A stretch of 64,000 nt of DNA from Desulfovibrio psychrotolerans (GTDB taxonomy: Bacteria; Desulfobacterota; Desulfovibrionia; Desulfovibrionales; Desulfovibrionaceae), in the NCBI RefSeq assembly GCF_013340305.1, contig NZ_BLVP01000036.1, positions 95,579 through 159,578 of the forward strand. The letters are read 5' to 3'. Shown here piece after piece: positions 18,251-28,398 of the stretch (position 1 is its first letter; each line of letters starts with the position of its first letter). The notes beneath the pieces were generated by a model. The model saw only the letters and a list, made by a program, of their open reading frames with translations. It was not told where the DNA came from and searched no databases. The position numbers and the translations under genes are program-made.

Positions 18251-18820
18251 TTACCGGATGCGCCCCAGCAATGTCTCAACCGAAGGGAGGATATTCTGCG
18301 CTATCCTTGTCATGCCTTCAGCATTGGGGTGGATGCCGTCTTCAAGATTCAGCGCAGGCTTGCCCAGCACGCCCTCAAGGAAGAAGGGGTAGAATACCGG
18401 GTCAAACCGCTCCACAAGCTTAGGGAAAAGCCCCTCGAACGCCCGGACGTATTCCTCGTCCGCAGGAACGAGTGGTCGCATTCCGGCGAGCAGGGCAGGA
18501 ATCTCTTCCTCCGCCAGCCGTTGCAGCAGGCTGTCCAGAGTGGCTTCCACTTCCCATGGGTCGGTGAGCTGAATGGCATCGTTAGCACCCAGTTCCACGA
18601 TAACGGCGTCTGGTCTGGGCCGCGTGGCGAGGTACCGTTCCAGCCGTTTAAGCCCTCCCCACGCCGTGTCACCGGAAAGGCCCTGATTGATAATGGAGAC
18701 ATTGTGCCCGCGCTGGCGCAGCAGTCTTTGCAGCACGGCGGGAAAGGAAGCCTCAGTCGGGAGGCCGTATCCCTCTGTGAGAGAATCTCCGAGGGCGAGG
18801 ATGGTTTTCAAACGGTTCAC
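18251..18820 (-). CDS. SGNH/GDSL-family esterase (TesA-like)
   Basis: A 189-residue hydrolase. Block I is ALGDSLTEGYG with the nucleophilic serine, block II has GLSGDTAWGG, block III is ELGANDAIQ (the oxyanion Asn), and block V is DGIHPNAEG with the catalytic Asp-His. Homologues are TesA-type arylesterase/thioesterase I. I chose the GTG at 18820, preceded by CAGGTG; an upstream TTG in frame lacks a site. It has no export signal, unlike E. coli TesA, so it is probably cytoplasmic. It is the last gene of the hydrogenase block, after hypC. Confidence 0.85.
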   Translation of the reverse strand: MNRLKTILALGDSLTEGYGLPTEASFPAVLQRLLRQRGHNVSIINQGLSGDTAWGGLKRLERYLATRPRPDAVIVELGANDAIQLTDPWEVEATLDSLLQRLAEEEIPALLAGMRPLVPADEEYVRAFEGLFPKLVERFDPVFYPFFLEGVLGKPALNLEDGIHPNAEGMTRIAQNILPSVETLLGRIR

Positions 18821-18850
18821 AACAGCACCTGATGCAAACAATCGTATGGG

Positions 18851-19102
18851 TTAGAAAGCGCCGGGGGAATCTTCGTTGATATTCGCCATTTGCCTGAGAA
18901 GGCGCAGTGTTTCCTGCGCTTCTTGAAAATCGAGTTTGCGCAGGGCAAAGCCCGCGTGCACAATAAGGTAGTCGCCAATTTCAGCGGCAGTTTCCAGCAA
19001 CATGGTGGAAACGTCCACATAGGTGTCGCTTTTACCCACACGGCAACGGGCCATGTCGTTGGGATGCAATTCAACAACTTCAGCGGGTATGGCAAGACAC
19101 AT
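18851..19102 (-). CDS. hypC: [NiFe] hydrogenase maturation chaperone HypC
   Basis: An 83-residue chaperone that delivers the Fe(CN)2CO unit to the large-subunit precursor. It starts MCLAIPAEVVE, the family signature with the essential N-terminal Cys2, and continues through VSTMLLETAAEIGDYLIVHAGFAL. GGAGG precedes the ATG. It sits after the hynC-type protease and could serve both hydrogenases in this block. Confidence 0.95.
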   Translation of the reverse strand: MCLAIPAEVVELHPNDMARCRVGKSDTYVDVSTMLLETAAEIGDYLIVHAGFALRKLDFQEAQETLRLLRQMANINEDSPGAF

Positions 19103-19144
19103 GGCAACCTCCGGGTCTGTTTATCCAAAAAATGTCGGTCAGCG

Positions 19145-19639
19145 TCAGCAAACAATGGGCGTGTAGCTTCCGCCTGCGGCAGTTATTTCATCAAGAACAC
19201 ATCGGCACATGTGGGGCAACCGTTCAGCCACATCGGGCGAAACCTCCAGCCCCATGCTATGGTAGTCCACAGGCTCCATGCCTATAACCACCGTTTCCGG
19301 CCTGTTGCCCGCAAGTTCACAGTAGATGAGCGTGTCAACAAGATCCGTCTGATGCATGGAATCGTTGAACCCCAGACTCTTGCGCAGGTCTTCGCCCGTC
19401 AGGCGGTAAACTGTGGCAGGAGTGCTGCCCCCGAGCACTGCATCTACTACGATCAGATACTGGCTGTCCATCATGGAATCCATGAGTTTCATGCCCAAGG
19501 TGCCGCCATCCATAAGGGTTACGTTGTCGGAAAACGTATATTCCCGTTGCAGCATTTCCACGGCGCGCACGCCCAGCCCTTCGTCAGTGTACAGGATGTT
19601 GCCTACGCCAAGCACCAGAATTCGTTTAGCATCACTCAT
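19145..19639 (-). CDS. hynC: Hydrogenase maturation protease (for HynA)
   Basis: A 164-residue nickel-dependent endopeptidase of the HybD/HyaD family, which removes the C-terminal peptide of the large subunit after nickel insertion. LVLGVGNILYTDEGLGV carries the first acidic ligand; DAVLGG and further D/E/H positions follow (VVIGMEPVD). It shares its fold with the hysD-like protease at 23178-23669. It lies downstream of hynA behind a terminator, so it is expected to be transcribed at a lower level than hynBA. Confidence 0.88.
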   Translation of the reverse strand: MSDAKRILVLGVGNILYTDEGLGVRAVEMLQREYTFSDNVTLMDGGTLGMKLMDSMMDSQYLIVVDAVLGGSTPATVYRLTGEDLRKSLGFNDSMHQTDLVDTLIYCELAGNRPETVVIGMEPVDYHSMGLEVSPDVAERLPHMCRCVLDEITAAGGSYTPIVC

Positions 19640-19655
19640 GCGTGCACCTTATCTG

Positions 19656-19687
19656 AAAAAGGGAACCCGGCGCAAGGCCGGGTTCCC
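19656..19687 (-). terminator. Intrinsic terminator after hynA
   Basis: On the minus strand GGGAACCCGGC pairs perfectly with GCCGGGTTCCC around a 5-base loop, followed by TTTTTC. It lies in the gap between the hynA stop and the maturation protease. Confidence 0.9.
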
Positions 19688-19710
19688 GTGTTTTGAGGAT
19701 TTTCTTTCAA

Positions 19711-21414
19711 TTACAGAATCTTGAACTTGTGCACTTCGTTGGTGCGGCTGTCTATGACGTGCACACCGCAGGCGATGCAGGGGTCAAAGGAGTGCACCGT
19801 GCGCAGAATTTCCACCGGGCGCTTGGGATCTGCCACGGGGGTGTTCATCAGGGCTTCTTCCACGGGGGCGAGCTTGTTATTGCCGCAGCGCGGTCCAAGG
19901 CTCCATGTGGAAGGCACCACGAGCTGGAAGTTCTCGATCTTGTGATCGCGGATCTTGATCCAGTGAGAAAGTGCGCCGCGCGGTGCGGTGACAAAGCCCA
20001 CGCCTTCCGCATCGCGGGGCATTTCAATCTCTTCGTATATCTTTCCGTCACCGGCGGCCACATTGGCTTCCAGTTCGTCCAGCATGCGTCCGGTTTCTTC
20101 CGCAATAACCACGGTCTCAATGCCCCGTGCCGCCGTGCGGCCAAGGGTGGAGAACAGGGCTCCTGCGCCCACGCCAAGCTTACCGAGAACCATGTCCACC
20201 AGCGGCTTGATCTTGGGATGCCCCTTGGCATAGGCGGCCAGCACCTGCGCCAGCGGCCCGGTTTCCATGGCCTCGTTCATGTAGCGGGGAGCTTTCATCC
20301 ACGAGTAACGGTCTTCGCCGTGCATGTCAGTGTAGCGCGGCTCGGTAACGCCTTCATAGGGATGATGGGCCTTGTCGCCTTCATACCAGCTGTACTTGAC
20401 GTGTTCTTCGATCTTGTTCTGATCAAATGCCTGCATGTTGCCAAGGTCACGGTTAAAGATGACACCGGGCGGCAGGAAGCGGCTGTTGAGGTTGTATTCA
20501 TCCGTCGGGAATTCCCCGAAGGTGATGAAGTTCGAGGTGCCGCCGTACTGGGTCCAGTCCTTGTAATTGGCGGCAACGGCCAGCAGGTCAGGAATATAGA
20601 CCTGATTGATGAAGTCGGTGGTTTCTTTCCACAGTTCGCGGAATTCCTTGATGCGCTTGGGGGTAAGGGCATCGTAACAGGTAACGCCGCCGGCCACTGT
20701 GAACTGGGTGTGCGGATTCTTTCCGCCGAAGGCGGCCATCATGCGTGCGGCCTTTACCTGAAGGCGCAGGGCTTCCAGATAGTGCGCGGTGGCGATGAGG
20801 TCCACTTCCGGTTCCAGATAGTAGGAGGGGTGCCCGCCAAGGAAGTAGGCGTTGGTGAAGGGGCCAAGCTGGCCGCTGTCCACAAACGCTTTCAGTTTGG
20901 TCTGCACGGCCTTCAGGTCTTCCGCCTTTGTGGGGCGTCCGGAGATAGTGTTGGCAATTTTGGCTGCCTTTACCGGGTCAGCCTTCAGTGCGTTGGTTAC
21001 GTCCACCCAGTCAAGGGCGTGCAGATGATAGAAATGCACAAGATGGTCGTGCATATACTGTGCACCAAGCACTATGTTGCGGATAAGGGTCGCGTTCTTG
21101 GGAATACGTACGCCTATGGCGTTATCCACACAGCGTGTGGATGCGAGGGCATGCACATAGGTGCACACGCCGCACGAACGCTGGGTAAAGTGCTGCGCAT
21201 CGCGCGGGTCGCGGCCTTTGAGAATGATTTCCAAGCCGCGGAACAGCTGGGAAGAGCTCCATACGTTGGAGATTCTGCCGTTGTCCACTTCCACTTCAAT
21301 ACGAAGATGCCCCTCAATGCGGGTAATGGGGTCAACGACCACCTTGCCCGAATAATTGCTCTGCGGAGTAACCGGGATACCGGCAGGGGCCTTCTGCGCT
21401 CTACAACCACTCAT
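19711..21414 (-). CDS. hynA: Periplasmic [NiFe] hydrogenase, large subunit
   Basis: A 567-residue catalytic subunit that oxidises or evolves H2 in the periplasm. The L1 motif RSCGVCTYVH (Cys81, Cys84) and L2 DPCIACGVH (Cys546, Cys549) ligate the Ni-Fe site; the 15 residues after the final His (VIDSRTNEVHKFKIL) are the peptide removed by the protease. All four metal cysteines are true cysteine, in contrast to hysA. The AAGGAGG site abuts the ATG at 21420, so the ATG at 21414, six bases further, is the better start. It is exported with HynB, whose Tat signal carries the complex. Confidence 0.97.
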   Translation of the reverse strand: MSGCRAQKAPAGIPVTPQSNYSGKVVVDPITRIEGHLRIEVEVDNGRISNVWSSSQLFRGLEIILKGRDPRDAQHFTQRSCGVCTYVHALASTRCVDNAIGVRIPKNATLIRNIVLGAQYMHDHLVHFYHLHALDWVDVTNALKADPVKAAKIANTISGRPTKAEDLKAVQTKLKAFVDSGQLGPFTNAYFLGGHPSYYLEPEVDLIATAHYLEALRLQVKAARMMAAFGGKNPHTQFTVAGGVTCYDALTPKRIKEFRELWKETTDFINQVYIPDLLAVAANYKDWTQYGGTSNFITFGEFPTDEYNLNSRFLPPGVIFNRDLGNMQAFDQNKIEEHVKYSWYEGDKAHHPYEGVTEPRYTDMHGEDRYSWMKAPRYMNEAMETGPLAQVLAAYAKGHPKIKPLVDMVLGKLGVGAGALFSTLGRTAARGIETVVIAEETGRMLDELEANVAAGDGKIYEEIEMPRDAEGVGFVTAPRGALSHWIKIRDHKIENFQLVVPSTWSLGPRCGNNKLAPVEEALMNTPVADPKRPVEILRTVHSFDPCIACGVHVIDSRTNEVHKFKIL

Positions 21415-21461
21415 AGTCATCCTCCTTGGGATGTTCGTTCAAGATCAGTTTTCCTTGCGGC

Positions 21462-22415
21462 CTACATTTCATAGAAGGGGCTCATGTCATCCCAGAAATT
21501 GGGCTCTGAGCACCCAATGCAGGGATGACCGGCTTCTACGGGCCAGCTGGTCTGGTTGAACTTGATCTTGGGGCAGTTGTTGTAGGTGCTGGGGCCTTTA
21601 CAGCCCAGCTCATACAGGCACCAGCCCTTGCGGGCTTCTTCCGAGTCAAATGAGGGGGCGAACTCTCCCGCCTCAAAGTGGGGAAGGCGTTCGCACTGTT
21701 CATGCACGGTCAGTCCGAAGAACATGGTGGGCCGGTTCAGGCTGTCCAGTTCGGGCAGGGCCTTCTTGGTCAGGTAGTACACGATGGTGCCCACCAGATT
21801 ATACGGGTTGGGCGGACAGCCGGCAATGTTGATGCCGTTCACACCCAGATGTGCCAGAGCATCGTTAATACCCTTGGCGTCGGTGGGGTTCGGGGCGGCC
21901 GCCTGCACGCCGCCGAAGGTGGCGCAGGTGCCGTAATTGATAACAGCCAGTGCCTTGGGCAGGATTTCGCTGTTAATCTGCAGCATGGTGTGCCCGGCAA
22001 CCTTGCCGTAGATGCCGTTATCCTTGGTGGGAATGGCCCCTTCGGTGATGGCGATAAAGCCATGCGGGCTGTTAACGGCATGGTGCAGTGCTTCTTCAGC
22101 CGCATCGCCGGCGGCAGCCATAATGGTTTCGTGATAGTCCAGCGAGATGGTGTCGAGGATAAGCTCGTCAATGAAAGGCTGGAAAGTCCGCAGCACGGAT
22201 TCGGAACACCCGGTACACTCGGCATTGTGCAGATACACCACGGAAGGACGGCCGGGAGCGGTCATTGCTTTAGCAATCTGCGCTCCGAATGCCGGTCCCA
22301 TTCCCATGGCAACAGCAAGTGCGGAGCAGAACTTCAGGAAGTCACGGCGGGAGACGCCGTTCTTTTCCAGCCGTTCCTCAACGCCTTCTTTGCCGAGACC
22401 CACAGAGAACTTCAT
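21462..22415 (-). CDS. hynB: Periplasmic [NiFe] hydrogenase, small subunit
   Basis: A 317-residue iron-sulfur subunit that passes electrons from the Ni-Fe site to periplasmic cytochrome c3. Tat signal: SRRDFLKFC at residues 22-30, then a hydrophobic stretch ending ...FGAQIAKA. Cluster ligands include ECTGCSES (proximal), [30 protein letters not shown], and [12 protein letters not shown]. No C-terminal anchor is present, so it is soluble. AAGGAGG precedes the ATG. The long leader contains two perfect hairpins. Confidence 0.97.
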
Positions 22416-22447
22416 AGGAACCTCCTTGAATGAAACAGGGTCTACTG

Positions 22448-22500
22448 CCCCGGAGTATCCCTATCTCCGGGGAGAACACCGGCAACACGAATTGCCGGTG
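22448..22500 (-). promoter_or_regulatory. Two tandem perfect hairpins in the hynB leader
   Basis: CCCCGGAG (22448-22455) pairs with CTCCGGGG (22465-22472), and CACCGGCAA (22477-22485) pairs with TTGCCGGTG (22492-22500). They are separated by 4 bases and precede the hynB start by about 33 bases. No T-run follows, so they are mRNA structure (stability or control) rather than a standard terminator. Confidence 0.6.
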
Positions 22501-22502
22501 CT

Positions 22503-22520
22503 GTGCGTTACCTTCTGCCA
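22503..22520 (+). repeat. 18-bp dispersed repeat, copy 1
   Basis: GTGCGTTACCTTCTGCCA is found here two bases from the leader hairpin of hynB, and again, reversed, at 23864-23881 next to a 24-bp palindrome. The identity is exact over 18 bases. Confidence 0.7.
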
Positions 22521-22640
22521 GGATAGGTTAGCACGACTCCCGCAAAAAGCAGCACCCTCATGCAGGAGTCACGGGAACCATACAATAAAAAAGTACAAAA
22601 GATAAAGTGGTGTGGAGAAAAATGTTTTGTTGGATTGTTT

Positions 22641-22669
22641 ATTATAATGCAGGGATAAAAAATGTATTC
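22641..22669 (-). promoter_or_regulatory. Candidate hynB promoter
   Basis: Reverse strand: GAATAC (-35, poor), 17-base spacer, TATAAT (-10, perfect; 22641-22646). It would give a leader of about 220 nt that includes the two hairpins. The weak -35 suggests an activator or a different sigma factor. Confidence 0.4.
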
Positions 22670-23177
22670 GCTTTTTCGATGGAGTGAGAAACAGTTTCAT
22701 GCTCGTGCGTAACACATTGAATGAATGAACAGTCGTTGTTGCCAGTAGTCACCTGCAAAGGTATACAAAGGGCGAACGCAGTAAAGACGCATGCACTTGT
22801 GTGCAAGTCTTTGTAGTCAGTGCGGTGATGGGCAAATGCGGTGCGCGGCAGAGCATCATTGCACCCAGTTGCGCTCTCAGCGACGGGGTTGGATCAGACT
22901 TGAAACCGGAAAATGCTGATTGCCTGAACAGGGGGCCGAAGGGCATATCTATGCTGCGGTGTCTATAGAAAAGTGCGCCTGGTTGGGCGTAGGTGTGGAT
23001 GAACCAAGAAGCGCCCCGGATTTTTTTATGCCGGAGCGCTTCAAAAAGCTCGTGCGGGGAAAAGCCGCTGATAAAAAGGGTGAAGAAAAACAGAAGCAAA
23101 GCCGGACATACACCATCAAGAAAAAATCTTGATGTTCTCCAGACCATTTCCTTGCGAATACGTAGGGTGCGTAACTG

Positions 23178-23669
23178 TCAGGGGTTGTTACGCATCTCGC
23201 TGACAATACGGGCAATTTCCTTCCGGGCCAGTTCCAGAAACGTATCAAAGCGTTCTTGGCAGGGCACAGAAAGGCCAATGTTCCATGTGGTTATATCCTG
23301 CGGCTCCATGCCCAGAATTTCCATGCGGGGGCGTGAGCCGTTCTTCAGTTCGCACATCTTCAGCGAGTCCAGCATGTCAATATCGTGTATGGAAATACGC
23401 TGGCTTTCGTTGGAAACAAGGTCATTCTCGGTAAGCGTGTACAGCGTGCCGGGCTCGTGCCCACCGTGGATGACATCCAGCACCAGCAGCCTGTCATATC
23501 CTTCAAAAAGATAGAAGATATCCTGTGTAAAGGTGCCACCTTCCATGATGGTCACTTCCGGCGGCCAGGTTTCTTTCTGCAAAGCCTCAGCGGCAAAAAC
23601 GCCTACGCCATCGTCTGTGAGCAGGCTGTTGCCTATGCCCAGAACAAGCAGTTTCTTCGGTGTGGACAT
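23178..23669 (-). CDS. hysD: Hydrogenase maturation protease (for HysA)
   Basis: A 163-residue HybD-family endopeptidase. LVLGIGNSLLTDDGVGV carries the first nickel ligand and DVIHGGHEPG the second acidic residue; the C-terminal part contains EILGMEPQDIT. Its place after hysBA suggests it removes the C-terminal peptide of the selenium hydrogenase large subunit. The start at 23669 agrees with the family; the longer frame to 23816 has no signal. A terminator lies between it and hysA, as between hynA and its protease. Confidence 0.87.
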   Translation of the reverse strand: MSTPKKLLVLGIGNSLLTDDGVGVFAAEALQKETWPPEVTIMEGGTFTQDIFYLFEGYDRLLVLDVIHGGHEPGTLYTLTENDLVSNESQRISIHDIDMLDSLKMCELKNGSRPRMEILGMEPQDITTWNIGLSVPCQERFDTFLELARKEIARIVSEMRNNP

Positions 23670-23837
23670 GCTTTGAATCCGGTAACGTTTGAGTGGTTGT
23701 ATGAAACAGCAGGGCAGCGGGTAAGGGCAAGCGTATGTTGTGCTTTGCACAATGCATGTCCTTATGCACCTGCCAACGGCATTCCGCAGGAAGAATACCG
23801 GCAGTACGCCCCGCACCGCAAGCGGATATTCTGCACG

Positions 23838-23861
23838 CCGGGGCAGGCATGCCTGCCCCGG
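23838..23861. repeat. 24-bp perfect palindrome
   Basis: The half-site CCGGGGCAGGCA is followed directly by its exact reverse complement, giving a 24-base palindrome downstream of hysA. As RNA it could form a 10-bp stem with a CATG loop; on the plus strand TTT follows. It may be a protein-binding site or a terminator-like element; no gene starts here. Confidence 0.65.
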
Positions 23862-23863
23862 TT

Positions 23864-23881
23864 TGGCAGAAGGTAACGCAC
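23864..23881 (-). repeat. 18-bp dispersed repeat, copy 2 (inverted)
   Basis: The reverse complement reads GTGCGTTACCTTCTGCCA, identical to 22503-22520. It starts 2 bases from the 24-bp palindrome, as copy 1 starts 2 bases from a hairpin. Confidence 0.7.
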
Positions 23882-23905
23882 CGCATTGCTGCAGGCGGTT
23901 CCACT

Positions 23906-23934
23906 AAAAAAGAGGGCCGGAATGCCCGGCCCTC
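23906..23934 (-). terminator. Intrinsic terminator after hysA
   Basis: On the minus strand GAGGGCCGG pairs with CCGGCCCTC around a 5-base loop and is followed by TTTTTT. It ends the hysBA transcript 27 bases after the true hysA stop. Confidence 0.92.
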
Positions 23935-23960
23935 TTCAGTATGGCGGTATCTATGTCAAG

Positions 23961-25499
23961 TTACTTGCACTCAACAACGGAAACCTTGCCGGTCTCTGCG
24001 TGCATCACGTGCACGGCACAGCCCAGTCACGGGTCAAAGGCGCGGATAAGCCGCGCCACGTTTACCGGGTTTTCAATGTCCGGTACGGGAATGCCGATGA
24101 GCGCTTCTTCCACGGGACCACGCTGCCCCTTATCGTCGCGGGGGTTGCAGTTCCACAGGGTGGCGGAAACGATCTGGTAGTTGTCAATCTTCTTGTCCTT
24201 GATGCTCAGGAAGTGCAGCAGGGAGCCGCGGGGGGCTTCGGTGAAGCCGGTACCCACGCCGGTGTCCGGAATTTCGGGCTTAACGTAGGTTTCTTCGCCG
24301 GGCTTAACTTCCTTCAGCCAGGATTCGATGAAGTCGAGCATGTACCACGTTTCTTCCGCACGGGCCACATGGCGACCCATAAGGGAGAAGGCAGCGTCTT
24401 CACCAAGGTCGCGGAAGCGCTTGGCGTCCAGACCAAAGTGCTCCTTGAGCGCCTTCTGGCCGATGGGCGACAGCGGCGGGTTCTCAATCCACATACGGGC
24501 GAGGGGGCCCACTTCGCAGGCAACACCGTTGTAACGGGGAGCCTTGACGAAGGAGTAGGCACCTTCCTTATGGGGGTTGGGCTTGGTCTGCCCCTTGGAG
24601 TAATGCAGACCGGTGGTGCTGTCGTCAAACCAGGAGTACTTCACGTCTTCGTGAATCTGGGCCGGATCAAGTGCATGATCCTGTCCGTTGTAGTATACGC
24701 CGGGCTTAAGCATGAACTCTGTCATGGCATCGTTCAGGGGGAACACGCCGTAAGCGATGCATGCGCGGTGTCCCTGGCCCACAGCAAACAGGTCCTTGTA
24801 CTGGGAACCCACCAGATATACGACAGGCAGGTATTTTTCGATAACGAACTTCTTCACCAGATCAAAACGCGCAGCATATTCTATGAGGCGTTCCTTGGTG
24901 GGAATTTCGGATGAACCGCCGGCAACAATACCCTGAACATGGGGCATCTTGCCGCCGAACATGGCTACCATTTCATGGCAGACCTGGCGCACGGTAAGGG
25001 CTTCCACGTACTGGTCAACAGCAGCGGCGTTGACAGCGGCAAGGCCCTTGTTACGGTCTGTCAGCAGGTCGGAGTTTTTGTAGCGCGGCACAAAGGGGGC
25101 GCTGTCCGGGCCCTGCACAAAGTCCTGCGCAGCCAGATGGTAGAAGTGCAGAATGTGAGACTGCAGGTAGTTGGCACCAAAGATAAGGTTACGGGTAATG
25201 CGTCCGTTGGTGGTCACCTTGGTGTCCATGGCAGCATCCTGCGCCATAACGGATGCGGTGGCGTGCGCAGTGGGGCATACGCCGCAGATGCGCTGAACGA
25301 TCTGGGAAGAGTCGCGCGGATCGCGTCCGCGCAGAATGGTTTCAAATCCGCGGAACATACCGCCGGAAAGCTTGGCATCGACAACCTTGCCACCCTCAAC
25401 CACCACCTCGGCTTTGAGGTGGCCTTCGATACGGGTAACCGGATCGATGTGCAGCGTGGTCTTGCCGGTTGCGCCAGCAACGCGCTTACAAGAAGACAT
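23961..25499 (-). CDS. hysA: Periplasmic [NiFeSe] hydrogenase large subunit (selenoprotein)
   Basis: A 512-residue catalytic subunit read through an in-frame TGA. L1 is RICGVCPTAHA; the L2 motif reads DP-(TGA, 24029-24027)-LGCAVHV, where Sec491 replaces the usual first L2 cysteine and is a terminal nickel ligand. After it 21 more codons run to TAA; the peptide after the final His (VMHAETGKVSVVECK) would be removed by the protease. A SECIS-like hairpin begins right after the TGA. Selenium makes these enzymes more O2-tolerant and H2-evolving in known family members. AAGGAGG precedes the ATG; hysB is 38 bases upstream. Confidence 0.95.
23989..24026 (-). promoter_or_regulatory. Bacterial SECIS element of hysA
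   Basis: Right after the UGA the mRNA can form a hairpin: lower stem CUGG/CCGG, upper stem GUGCA/UGCAC extended by C-G, and an apical loop CGUGA containing the GU expected for SelB binding, about 18 nt after the UGA. The structure directs SelB-dependent Sec insertion in the bacterial mode. Confidence 0.8.
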
Positions 25500-25537
25500 A
25501 TGATTCCTCCTTCAAACAATGAAAGACAAGGGTGCGA

Positions 25538-26491
25538 CTACATTTCGTAGAAAGGCGACTTACCATCAGGGAAGTCCGGTTCCACGCAGCCGATGCACAC
25601 GGCGTTGTCGATGCACCAGTTAATGCCGTTGTTCCACTTGCGCTTGTAGCAGTCTGCCATGGTGCTCGGGCCTTTACAGCCCACTTCCATGCGGCAGCCG
25701 TCCTTGTCGCTCAGTGTTTTACACATCTTGTCATCATCGAAAGCAGGCAGGTACGGACAGTTGTCATGGATGTTCTCGCCGAAGAAGGGCGTGGGACGTC
25801 CCTCGCTGTCGAGAAGCTTCACCACTTCGCCCAGACCGGCAGCAAGGCCGTGGGTCTTGATGGCTTCCAGGGCAACAACCACGGTTCCCACAATCCAGTC
25901 GGGGTGGGGCGGGCAGCCGGGAATGTTCACTACGGGCGTGGCAATGCCTTCCTGAGCAAAGAAGTCGCGAACCGACATGGCGCCGGTTTCGCTGCCTTCC
26001 GCAGCAGGAATACCGCCGTAGGCGGCGCAGGTGCCAAGGGCAAGAACGGCGGCAGCCTTGGGTGCCAGGTCCTTCATGGCCTGCACCATGGAGATTTCCT
26101 TGTGGTGCGCTTCACCAATGATGCAGTACTTGCCGTCTGCGGCAACAGGAATGGAGCCTTCAACCGCGAGGAAGAAGCCACCCTTGTATTCTTCGGCAAT
26201 CTTGTACATGTGCTCCATGGCGGGTTCGCCTTCCCACGCCATAACGGTGGGGTGATACTCCAGACTGATCACATCAAGAAGCAGATCCTTGATATGCGGG
26301 TTTACGGAGTTCAGCAAAGATACTGAACATCCGGTGCAGCCTGAGCCCTGAACCCACAGCACGGGGGGGCGGCTGCCATTAAGCGAGCCGGAAATGGCTT
26401 CACAGACACTGGGGTGGAACATCTGGGAAATTCCCATTCCAGCCACCGTGCCTGTGCACAGTTTAACAAAGTCACGCCTGCTGAGACTCAT
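25538..26491 (-). CDS. hysB: Periplasmic [NiFeSe] hydrogenase small subunit
   Basis: A 317-residue iron-sulfur subunit. Tat signal SRRDFVKLC is at residues 4-12. Cluster cysteines lie in GCTGCSVS, GTCAAYGG, GCPPHPDW, MEVGCKGPSTMADC and CIGCVEPDFPDG. It is a diverged relative of hynB; the signal is much shorter before the twin arginines (3 versus 21 residues). It forms the operon hysBA with a strong AGGAGG site. Confidence 0.96.
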   Translation of the reverse strand: MSLSRRDFVKLCTGTVAGMGISQMFHPSVCEAISGSLNGSRPPVLWVQGSGCTGCSVSLLNSVNPHIKDLLLDVISLEYHPTVMAWEGEPAMEHMYKIAEEYKGGFFLAVEGSIPVAADGKYCIIGEAHHKEISMVQAMKDLAPKAAAVLALGTCAAYGGIPAAEGSETGAMSVRDFFAQEGIATPVVNIPGCPPHPDWIVGTVVVALEAIKTHGLAAGLGEVVKLLDSEGRPTPFFGENIHDNCPYLPAFDDDKMCKTLSDKDGCRMEVGCKGPSTMADCYKRKWNNGINWCIDNAVCIGCVEPDFPDGKSPFYEM

Positions 26492-26532
26492 CCCTGCCTC
26501 CTTACCTTTTTGGCGTTTTGAAAAAACCCCTC

Positions 26533-26553
26533 AGCTATAAACACCCTATAGCT
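26533..26553. promoter_or_regulatory. Inverted repeat AGCTATA-N7-TATAGCT (candidate operator)
   Basis: A perfect 7+7 inverted repeat with a 7-base spacer, lying between the predicted hysB start of transcription and the hysB ribosome site. A further GATAGCT half-site lies in the -10 region (26570-26576). The arrangement is what a repressor or leader structure would show. Confidence 0.55.
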
Positions 26554-26571
26554 TTGTGAAATACCTATTGA

Positions 26572-26601
26572 TAGCTACAATCCTTTTTAATGTTGTGTCA
26601 A
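26572..26601 (-). promoter_or_regulatory. Candidate hysBA promoter
   Basis: Reverse strand: TTGACA (26596-26601), 18-base spacer, TAGCTA (26572-26577). It is about 80 bases before the hysB ATG. The -35 is perfect; the -10 is fair and overlaps a half-site of the AGCTATA repeat. The rest of 26492-26863 shows no gene. Confidence 0.5.
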
Positions 26602-26863
26602 TGGATTACAAATGTTTTCGACCAGAATCGATAGAGAAAAGTTATCGTATCACAGCTCAAAAAGTGTTTGGGTACACAGTTCTTTGTACGAGTGTGTGAA
26701 TCGTGAGGAAAGAACAACCTGAAAAACTGTGCAATTTTACGCTCGGCAGCCAGATGTAGCCGGGGCAAGATGTGGATTGTGCAATCAATCAATAAAAGAG
26801 GGGGGTGAGGGGGCATCCGAAGACATTTGCAAAGCAGCGGACAAGGCGAAGAGGTTGCATATG

Positions 26864-26901
26864 AAAAAGCCTGCCCCGATAGTGCACGGAGCAGGCTTTT
26901 T
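26864..26901. terminator. Bidirectional intrinsic terminator after rho
   Basis: AAAAAGCCTGC (26864-26874) pairs perfectly with GCAGGCTTTTT (26891-26901) around 16 bases. It is flanked by A and T runs on both sides, so it can work in both directions; it ends the rho transcript 28 bases after the stop. Confidence 0.9.
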
Positions 26902-26928
26902 GTATTGTATTATCAGAAGGTGTGGTGA

Positions 26929-28398
26929 CTACTTGTTCATCGCCATGAAGAACTCGGCATTACTCTTTGTGCCACGCATCTTTCCAAGCAGGAATTCCAT
27001 GCTGTCGATGGAGGACATGGGCGAAAGTATTTTGCGGAGAATCCACACGCGGTTGAGCGTTTCCTCGTCCAGCAGCAGGTCTTCTTTGCGGGTGCCCGTG
27101 CGGTTTATGTCTATGGCGGGGAAGACGCGCTTGTCGGCTAGGTGGCGGTCCAGATAGATATCCAGGTTGCCGGTGCCCTTGAATTCTTCGAAGATGACTT
27201 CATCCATGCGTGAGCCGGTGTCTATCAGCGCGGTGGCAATGATGGTCAGGCTGCCACCTTCCTCAAGGTTGCGCGCAGCACCGAAGAAGCGTTTGGGGCG
27301 TTGCAGTGCGTTGGCATCCAGACCGCCGGAAAGCACGCGGCCGGAAGAGGGGGTAACAGCGTTGTAGGCGCGGCCCAAACGGGTGATGGAGTCCAGAAGA
27401 ATCACAACATCCCGTCCGCGTTCCACAAGTCGCTTGGCCTTTTCCTGAACCATTTCAGCAACCTGAACGTGGCGCTGCGGCGGTTCGTCAAAGGTGGAGC
27501 TTACCACTTCCGCGTTTTTGACCGTGCGCTCCATGTCCGTCACTTCCTCGGGACGTTCGTCAATGAGGAGGATGATGAGGTAAACGTCCGGGTTGTTGGC
27601 GTTTATGGAGTTGGCAAGAGATTGCAGAATCATGGTCTTGCCGGTGCGCGGCGGTGCCACGATAAGGCCGCGCTGTCCGCAGCCGATGGGGGCCATAAGG
27701 TCAATGACGCGCCCGGAGTTGTTGTCCTGCCCCGTTTCCATCTTGAGTTGCCGCAGGGGGTAGATGGGGGTTAGGTTGTCGAAAAGAACCAGATTCTTGG
27801 AGCGCTCCGGCGGCTCAAAGCCTATCTCGGTCACGCGCAGCAGGGCGAAATAGCGTTCCCCTTCCTTGGGCGGACGTATGTGGCCGGAAACCACATCGCC
27901 TTTGCGCAGGCCAAATCGGCGGATCTGGGAAGGAGAGACATAGATGTCGTCCGGGCCGGGCATGTAGCTGTACATGGGGGAGCGCAGAAACCCGAACCCA
28001 TCGGGAAGAATTTCCAGCACGCCATCGCCCGAAATGGCTCCGTTCTGCGCCGCACAGCGCTGGAGCAAGGCGAAAATCAGCTCCTGCTTGCGTAGGTTGC
28101 TGGGGTTCTCAACCTGATACTGGTCCGCAAGCTCCATGAGCTCGGCTGCGGATTTGAGCTTAAGCTCCGAAAGATTGAGCCCGCCTTCGCCGTTCACATC
28201 AGGGGTGACAGCCATATCCAGATCGGCGTCATCATACATGTCCGCTTTTCGATTCTGGTGCTGGGAAGGTTTGGACTTGGAGTCGCCCTTGTTGGAAGAG
28301 GGGGATTGTTTGCGTTTTCTCTGAGCAGGCTTGGACTGTCCTCGCGGGCGCTGTGGGGACTCCTGCCTGTTATCATCAACGTCTTTCTTTGTAGCCAT
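26929..28398 (-). CDS. rho: Transcription termination factor Rho
   Basis: A 489-residue hexameric RNA-dependent ATPase. Residues 1 to about 70 are a non-conserved extension (basic, Q/N/S/K rich, then acidic) before the usual Rho_N helix bundle ([16 protein letters not shown]). The RNA-binding CSD has DGFGFLRSP, Walker A is PPRTGKT, Walker B region [15 protein letters not shown], and the Q/R-loops follow ([12 protein letters not shown]-like [10 protein letters not shown]). The hairpin at 28508-28525 in the upstream region might be part of autoregulation. Confidence 0.96.

Follow-up and report, generated by a model that had tools for sequence, protein, structure and literature searches.

The hysBA genes of Desulfovibrio psychrotolerans encode a predicted periplasmic [NiFeSe] hydrogenase and lie next to the genes of an ordinary [NiFe] hydrogenase. 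The window, the whole stretch of 64,000 nucleotides analyzed here (GC content 0.579), carries both sets of genes on its minus strand. The small subunit gene hysB (25538..26491; NF045520, 587.1 bits, cut-off 470) encodes a Tat signal (TIGR01409, 21.8 bits, cut-off 16.7) and is followed by the large subunit gene hysA (23961..25499) and by a gene for a hysD-type [NiFeSe] hydrogenase maturation protease (23178..23669; NF045519, 250.4 bits, cut-off 190). The protease match covers residues 54-205 of the 23816 open reading frame, whose likely start, the ATG at residue 50, was picked by inspection. Further downstream are the small subunit (21462..22415; TIGR00391, 396.9 bits, cut-off 179.5) and the large subunit (19711..21420) of the neighboring [NiFe] hydrogenase, a second maturation protease of the HupD type (19145..19639; TIGR00140, 181.9 bits, cut-off 151.8) and a HypC/HupF-type hydrogenase chaperone (18851..19102; TIGR00074, 67.6 bits, cut-off 48). 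The [NiFe] large subunit contains the motif FDPCIACGVH, with a TGC cysteine codon where hysA has TGA, and reaches 400.8 bits against the HysA model, below the cut-off of 780. An intrinsic terminator (23906..23935) between hysA and the protease gene was spotted by eye and is absent from the list of a pattern scan; the fold of 23942-23901 has an energy of -24.9 kcal/mol and a z-score of -5.0, with 0 of 200 shuffles as good. Because this strong terminator separates the two genes, hysBA may form a transcript of its own. A promoter scan of 18800-26950 returned 3 sites compared with 4.8 in shuffles, and the nearest coding-strand match upstream of hysB, a 9-of-12 match at 26931-26904, is more than 400 bases away.

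The hysA frame contains a single internal stop codon located at a metal-ligand position. Reading on the minus strand from the ATG at 25499, 490 codons precede a TGA at 24029-24027 (codon 491), the sole internal stop, which is followed by 21 sense codons (LGCAVHVMHAETGKVSVVECK) and a TAA at 23963-23961. The read-through product is 512 amino acids long with a predicted selenocysteine (Sec) at residue 491. A standard-code ORF caller places the gene at 24027..25499 and ends the protein at residue 490, the truncation that the sequence-only reading had expected of naive gene calling; its coordinates for the TGA, the 21 further codons and the TAA proved exact on translation. That reading had put the TGA one residue into the L2 motif. 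Relative to the L2 metal-ligand motif, DP-U-xx-C-xx-H, the codon is instead found at the first metal-ligand position (DP-U-LGCAVH), with U491 and C494 occupying the first and second L2 ligand positions. The HysA N-terminus reads MSSC (25488-25499, minus strand). When other loci are read from their aligned start, HysA opens with MSGC or MSSC in Nitratidesulfovibrio-type loci and in loci of the same genus as well, and does not do so in Desulfomicrobium-type loci. A lipid-modified cysteine has reportedly been proposed for the D. vulgaris HysA.

The read-through protein belongs to the HysA family. It reaches 906.8 bits against NCBIfam NF045518 (HysA; cut-off 780) and 677 bits against the broader NF033181 (cut-off 600), and also matches Pfam PF00374; the small subunit with its Tat signal and the dedicated protease, all over their cut-offs, are encoded alongside. 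In the PDB it is most similar to large subunits of periplasmic [NiFeSe] hydrogenases, whose chains bear the name 'selenocysteine-containing'. Alignment of the read-through product with known [NiFeSe] large subunits had been proposed as a check, and the top two PDB alignments span query residues 8-512, with X, a non-standard residue, in the Sec column of 5jsh and C in that of 5jsu. In several PDB chains the last residue is the one aligned with His497, the L2 histidine. Entries 3ze6, 5jsh and 5jsu presumably come from D. vulgaris Hildenborough. Entry 2wpn likewise represents HysAB of Desulfovibrio (Nitratidesulfovibrio) vulgaris Hildenborough, and 1cc1 is the [NiFeSe] hydrogenase of Desulfomicrobium baculatum, as stated in the text available from Tamura et al., 2016 (PMC4730141). 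The large subunit described here and that of D. vulgaris Hildenborough are of one family over residues 8-512, and the two differ by ordinary sequence divergence only, with no functional difference seen. The D. baculatum enzyme is also of the same family. Desulfomicrobium loci are 71% identical and carry the TGA, but possess a GEEHV-type tail in place of the GKVSVVE tail of the window's genus.

The in-frame TGA is conserved among the HysA genes of the order. Searching 348 genomes of the order, we found 88 places in 87 genomes that exceed the HysA cut-off and read the codon at all of them, the window's own included. TGA is present at codon 491 in 87 of the 88 (30 of 30 loci of the first set and 57 of the 58 remaining). 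At the last place (G084) the HysA model match ends at position 442, the frame is lost near residue 456, and FDP-TGA-LGCAVH and the tail follow downstream in another frame. No reversion from Sec to Cys was seen among the 88 places. In a separate collection of 80 loci from named genome contigs, the aligned codon is TGA in 21 and TGC or TGT in 59. The Cys loci include L031, the same gene as that of G084 and as locus L185, some species being present in both collections; its aligned gene is the neighboring [NiFe] one, and since its motif could not be read in the aligned frame it was left out of the first codon comparison, which used 51 of 52 loci. Since TGA loci are about 50% or more identical to the window protein and Cys loci about 45% or less, TGA at this codon marks the HysA clade. 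The closest named relative is Halodesulfovibrio spirochaetisodalis (81%). This distribution bears on whether the TGA could have arisen through an error in sequencing, or through a recent nonsense mutation in a Cys codon that leaves the gene truncated. TGA is indeed one base away from TGC and TGT, and the Cys paralogue in the window has TGC. Yet TGA is kept in the nine other searched genomes of the window's genus and at all but one place in the order, where it is present out of frame, and the codons 3' of it are conserved as well. As the codon is conserved across independent genomes, an error or pseudogene is rejected, and we consider its probability vanishingly small.

The genome encodes a complete set of genes for selenocysteine decoding. 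In the organism's own genome, an assembly of 3.79 Mb in 47 contigs with a completeness of 99.86%, we identified SelA (611 bits, cut-off 268), SelD (341 bits, cut-off 125) and SelB (366 bits against a family cut-off of 242), the last carrying both SelB winged-helix domains (Pfam SelB-wing_2 and SelB-wing_3). A single tRNA-Sec match (79.4 bits, gathering score 47) is called tRNA-SeC with anticodon TCA by ARAGORN. Hence selA, selB, selC and selD all reside in one genome with hysA; the absence of selB or selC had been named beforehand as the result that would overturn a Sec assignment. SelB is also over the cut-off in 37 of 39 relative genomes, the organism's own included. Near-cognate readthrough of UGA occurs in bacteria, and the codon might in principle be read by an ordinary tRNA, for example that for Trp or Cys, with no involvement of selenium. 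We regard this as extremely unlikely given that all four Sec genes are present, that a SECIS-type hairpin is conserved behind the codon and that the nearest homologues of solved structure bear the name selenocysteine-containing. SelD (L010, C8:668866-669792) contains one in-frame TGA and is a predicted selenoprotein itself. Three formate dehydrogenase alpha subunits of this genome exceed the cut-off, and one of them has a TGA inside. L130 (C8), a formate dehydrogenase alpha subunit, and L133 (C2), a second, formate dehydrogenase-like match below the cut-off, contain in-frame TGA codons and are probably further selenoproteins.

A putative bacterial SECIS element directly follows the UGA. Folded as RNA, 24029-23989 (minus strand) yields a hairpin with an energy of -17.9 kcal/mol, whose upper stem has 5 bp (24014-24010 paired with 24004-24000) and whose apical loop, CGUGA (24009-24005), lies 17 nt past the UGA, in agreement with the GU-containing loop anticipated from the letters. 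These properties lie within the constraints on bacterial SECIS elements given in the available part of PMC13188914, and binding of SelB is predicted. At gathering scores, Rfam returned RNase P and three tRNAs for the whole window and nothing at the hairpin. Folding z-scores against shuffles are -1.76 (40 nt), -2.03 (41 nt), -1.63 (56 nt) and -0.09 (80 nt), and 10 of 200 shuffles are as stable as the 41-nt hairpin, so by energy alone the element is modestly unusual. Folding energy by itself is weak proof of a SECIS element and we therefore used comparative tests. Among synonymous recodings, 25 of 2000 are as stable as the 42-nt hysA stretch, 307 of 2000 as the 21-nt core and, for the neighboring Cys paralogue, 346 of 2000. 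The relatives vary widely, with 1 (L033), 10 (L034), 21 (L041) and 36 (L023) of 500 recodings as stable in some loci and unremarkable values of 194 (L020), 200 (L118), 318 (L036), 350 (L037) and 381 (L127) in others.

Conservation of the hairpin very probably extends beyond that of the protein. Of 51 distinct 41-nt sequences, 50 form every one of the five upper-stem pairs, and three of these pairs are invariant. The pair analysis of the second set included 57 of 58 loci. Across the two collections, L020, L022 and six of L100-L106 share one 41-nt sequence. The lower-stem pairs of the window's fold are conserved unevenly, being formed in 8 to 23 of 24 distinct sequences. A codon-constraint test retained 29 of the 51 Sec loci, no two of which reach 90% identity in nucleotide sequence. 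Downstream of the UGA seven codons could be scored, and in these the commonest codon has a mean fraction of 0.847, compared with 0.604 over 166 upstream columns; of 160 upstream stretches of seven codons, none attains 0.847 (maximum 0.769). It could be argued that the hairpin is a by-product of protein conservation, the codons of VHV-L/M-H being self-complementary, and that the real signal is located elsewhere. The ordinary energy of the 21-nt core among synonymous recodings and the invariance of three pairs are compatible with this view. It does not account for third-codon positions that vary less than elsewhere in the gene, nor for the variation of the same codons in Cys homologues, where V496 is GTG in 23 of 53 genes as opposed to 23 of 24 Sec genes. 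Two compensatory changes at stem pair 18-28 further argue against it. This pair is GC in 49 of the 51 distinct sequences, TA in one (which L033 shares with six loci of the window's genus and in which Asn replaces His500) and CG in one (L168, with His500 replaced by Asp), so that each change preserves pairing while altering the amino acid. An origin of the hairpin in protein conservation alone is thus very unlikely, and we favor a conserved RNA element. In L181, where His500 is replaced by Gln, the outermost upper-stem pair is broken.

Taken together, we propose that hysBA encodes a periplasmic [NiFeSe] hydrogenase in which UGA 491 is decoded as Sec by means of SelB and the hairpin and from which a tail is removed after His497, a reading to which we assign a probability of about 0.98. 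SelB carrying Sec-tRNA(Sec) would bind the hairpin that starts right after UGA 491 and deliver Sec to the ribosome at this codon in place of translation end. The selenolate of Sec491 would then serve as a nickel ligand in the active site and, after metal insertion, the HysD-type protease would cut off the 15-residue tail behind His497. The sequence shows the gene with its TGA codon, conservation of the hairpin, a Sec machinery encoded in the same genome and homology to solved enzymes of the class; that the organism actually inserts Sec, that this residue ligates nickel and that the tail is cleaved is what we infer.

The gene type is known from earlier work. The available text of Tamura et al., 2016 (PMC4730141) describes several [NiFeSe] large subunits that are truncated at an in-frame opal codon and read through as Sec, with SECIS elements detected directly after the opal codon; the legend of its Table 1 refers to twelve strains. 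The hysA gene of the window resembles these putative [NiFeSe] hydrogenases in both its opal-truncated large subunit and the SECIS-type element right after it, and since that study described the gene type it is a correctly recognized member of a described family. A 2006 survey (PMC1794560), in the portion available, counts an FrhA-type hydrogenase as a selenoprotein in two Desulfovibrio species, and this hydrogenase is probably a HysA-type enzyme. The UGA and the SECIS element being known already, hysA is a textbook case of the described enzyme family. No new enzyme biology is added, because [NiFeSe] hydrogenases have been solved structurally and catalogued with UGA and SECIS. The value of the observation lies in annotation, where standard ORF calling cuts this gene short and the sequence-only reading recognized it correctly.

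The hairpin and the C-terminal propeptide overlap. The propeptide VMHAETGKVSVVECK (23964..24008) has a predicted cut site after His497, consistent with the PDB chains that end at the matching residue and with the protease gene downstream, and codons 499-500 within it form the 3' arm of the hairpin. HysA tails are readable at 87 places in the order, 86 of them with the end in view, and range from 4 to 25 residues, none being of zero length. The shortest, VLHA with four residues, are found in L184 and L186 (genomes G068 and G070 of genus g5). A tail is entirely missing from nine of the 59 Cys homologues. These nine (L042, L043, L045-L047, L049, L050, L052 and L057) end right after the L2 histidine and are about 39-45% identical to the window protein. 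We ran the [NiFeSe] protease model on 36 hand-chosen genomes of the 87 with HysA, consisting of 11 with loose tails and 25 others. No protease over the cut-off was found in the 11 genomes, which belong to g5 and g32 and have short or mutually unlike HysA tails, and one was found in 23 of the 25 others, the two exceptions being G346, which is 64% complete and gave no match, and G045, with a match of 129 bits. All 11 loose tails start with V-L/M-H, so that in relatives lacking a recognizable dedicated protease it is the residues encoding the hairpin's 3' arm alone that are kept. The pattern agrees with a tail retained for its RNA role after the protease ceased to require the remaining residues. 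It is possible, if somewhat less than an even bet, that the propeptide has a second function, its first 3-4 codons carrying the SECIS 3' arm, that loss of these codons is precluded as long as Sec is used and that RNA pairing dictates their residues. The start of the propeptide would then be retained even where the protease has seemingly gone. The loose-tailed genomes may instead hold a diverged protease, as weaker best matches of 123-153 bits are present in all 11, or the pattern may stem from incomplete genomes or from the shared ancestry of the 11. Because of these weak matches, the incompleteness of several genomes and the relatedness of the 11, a tail held by RNA is a lead and not proof. 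If true, it suggests that an RNA element can keep a piece of a propeptide in place. The VLHA tails are just long enough to encode the hairpin's 3' arm, and neither G068 nor G070 has a [NiFeSe] protease over the cut-off.

Individual HysA loci show further peculiarities. In L116 (G210, of the window's genus) another TGA lies in frame in addition to the Sec TGA, at the position of a conserved Trp (aligned residue 449); it most likely represents an assembly error or a broken gene and not a second Sec. The alignment of L191 contains an extra stop at aligned residue 10, ahead of the likely start. Genome G071 encodes two HysA genes over the cut-off (L141 and L182), with tails of 15 and 10 residues.
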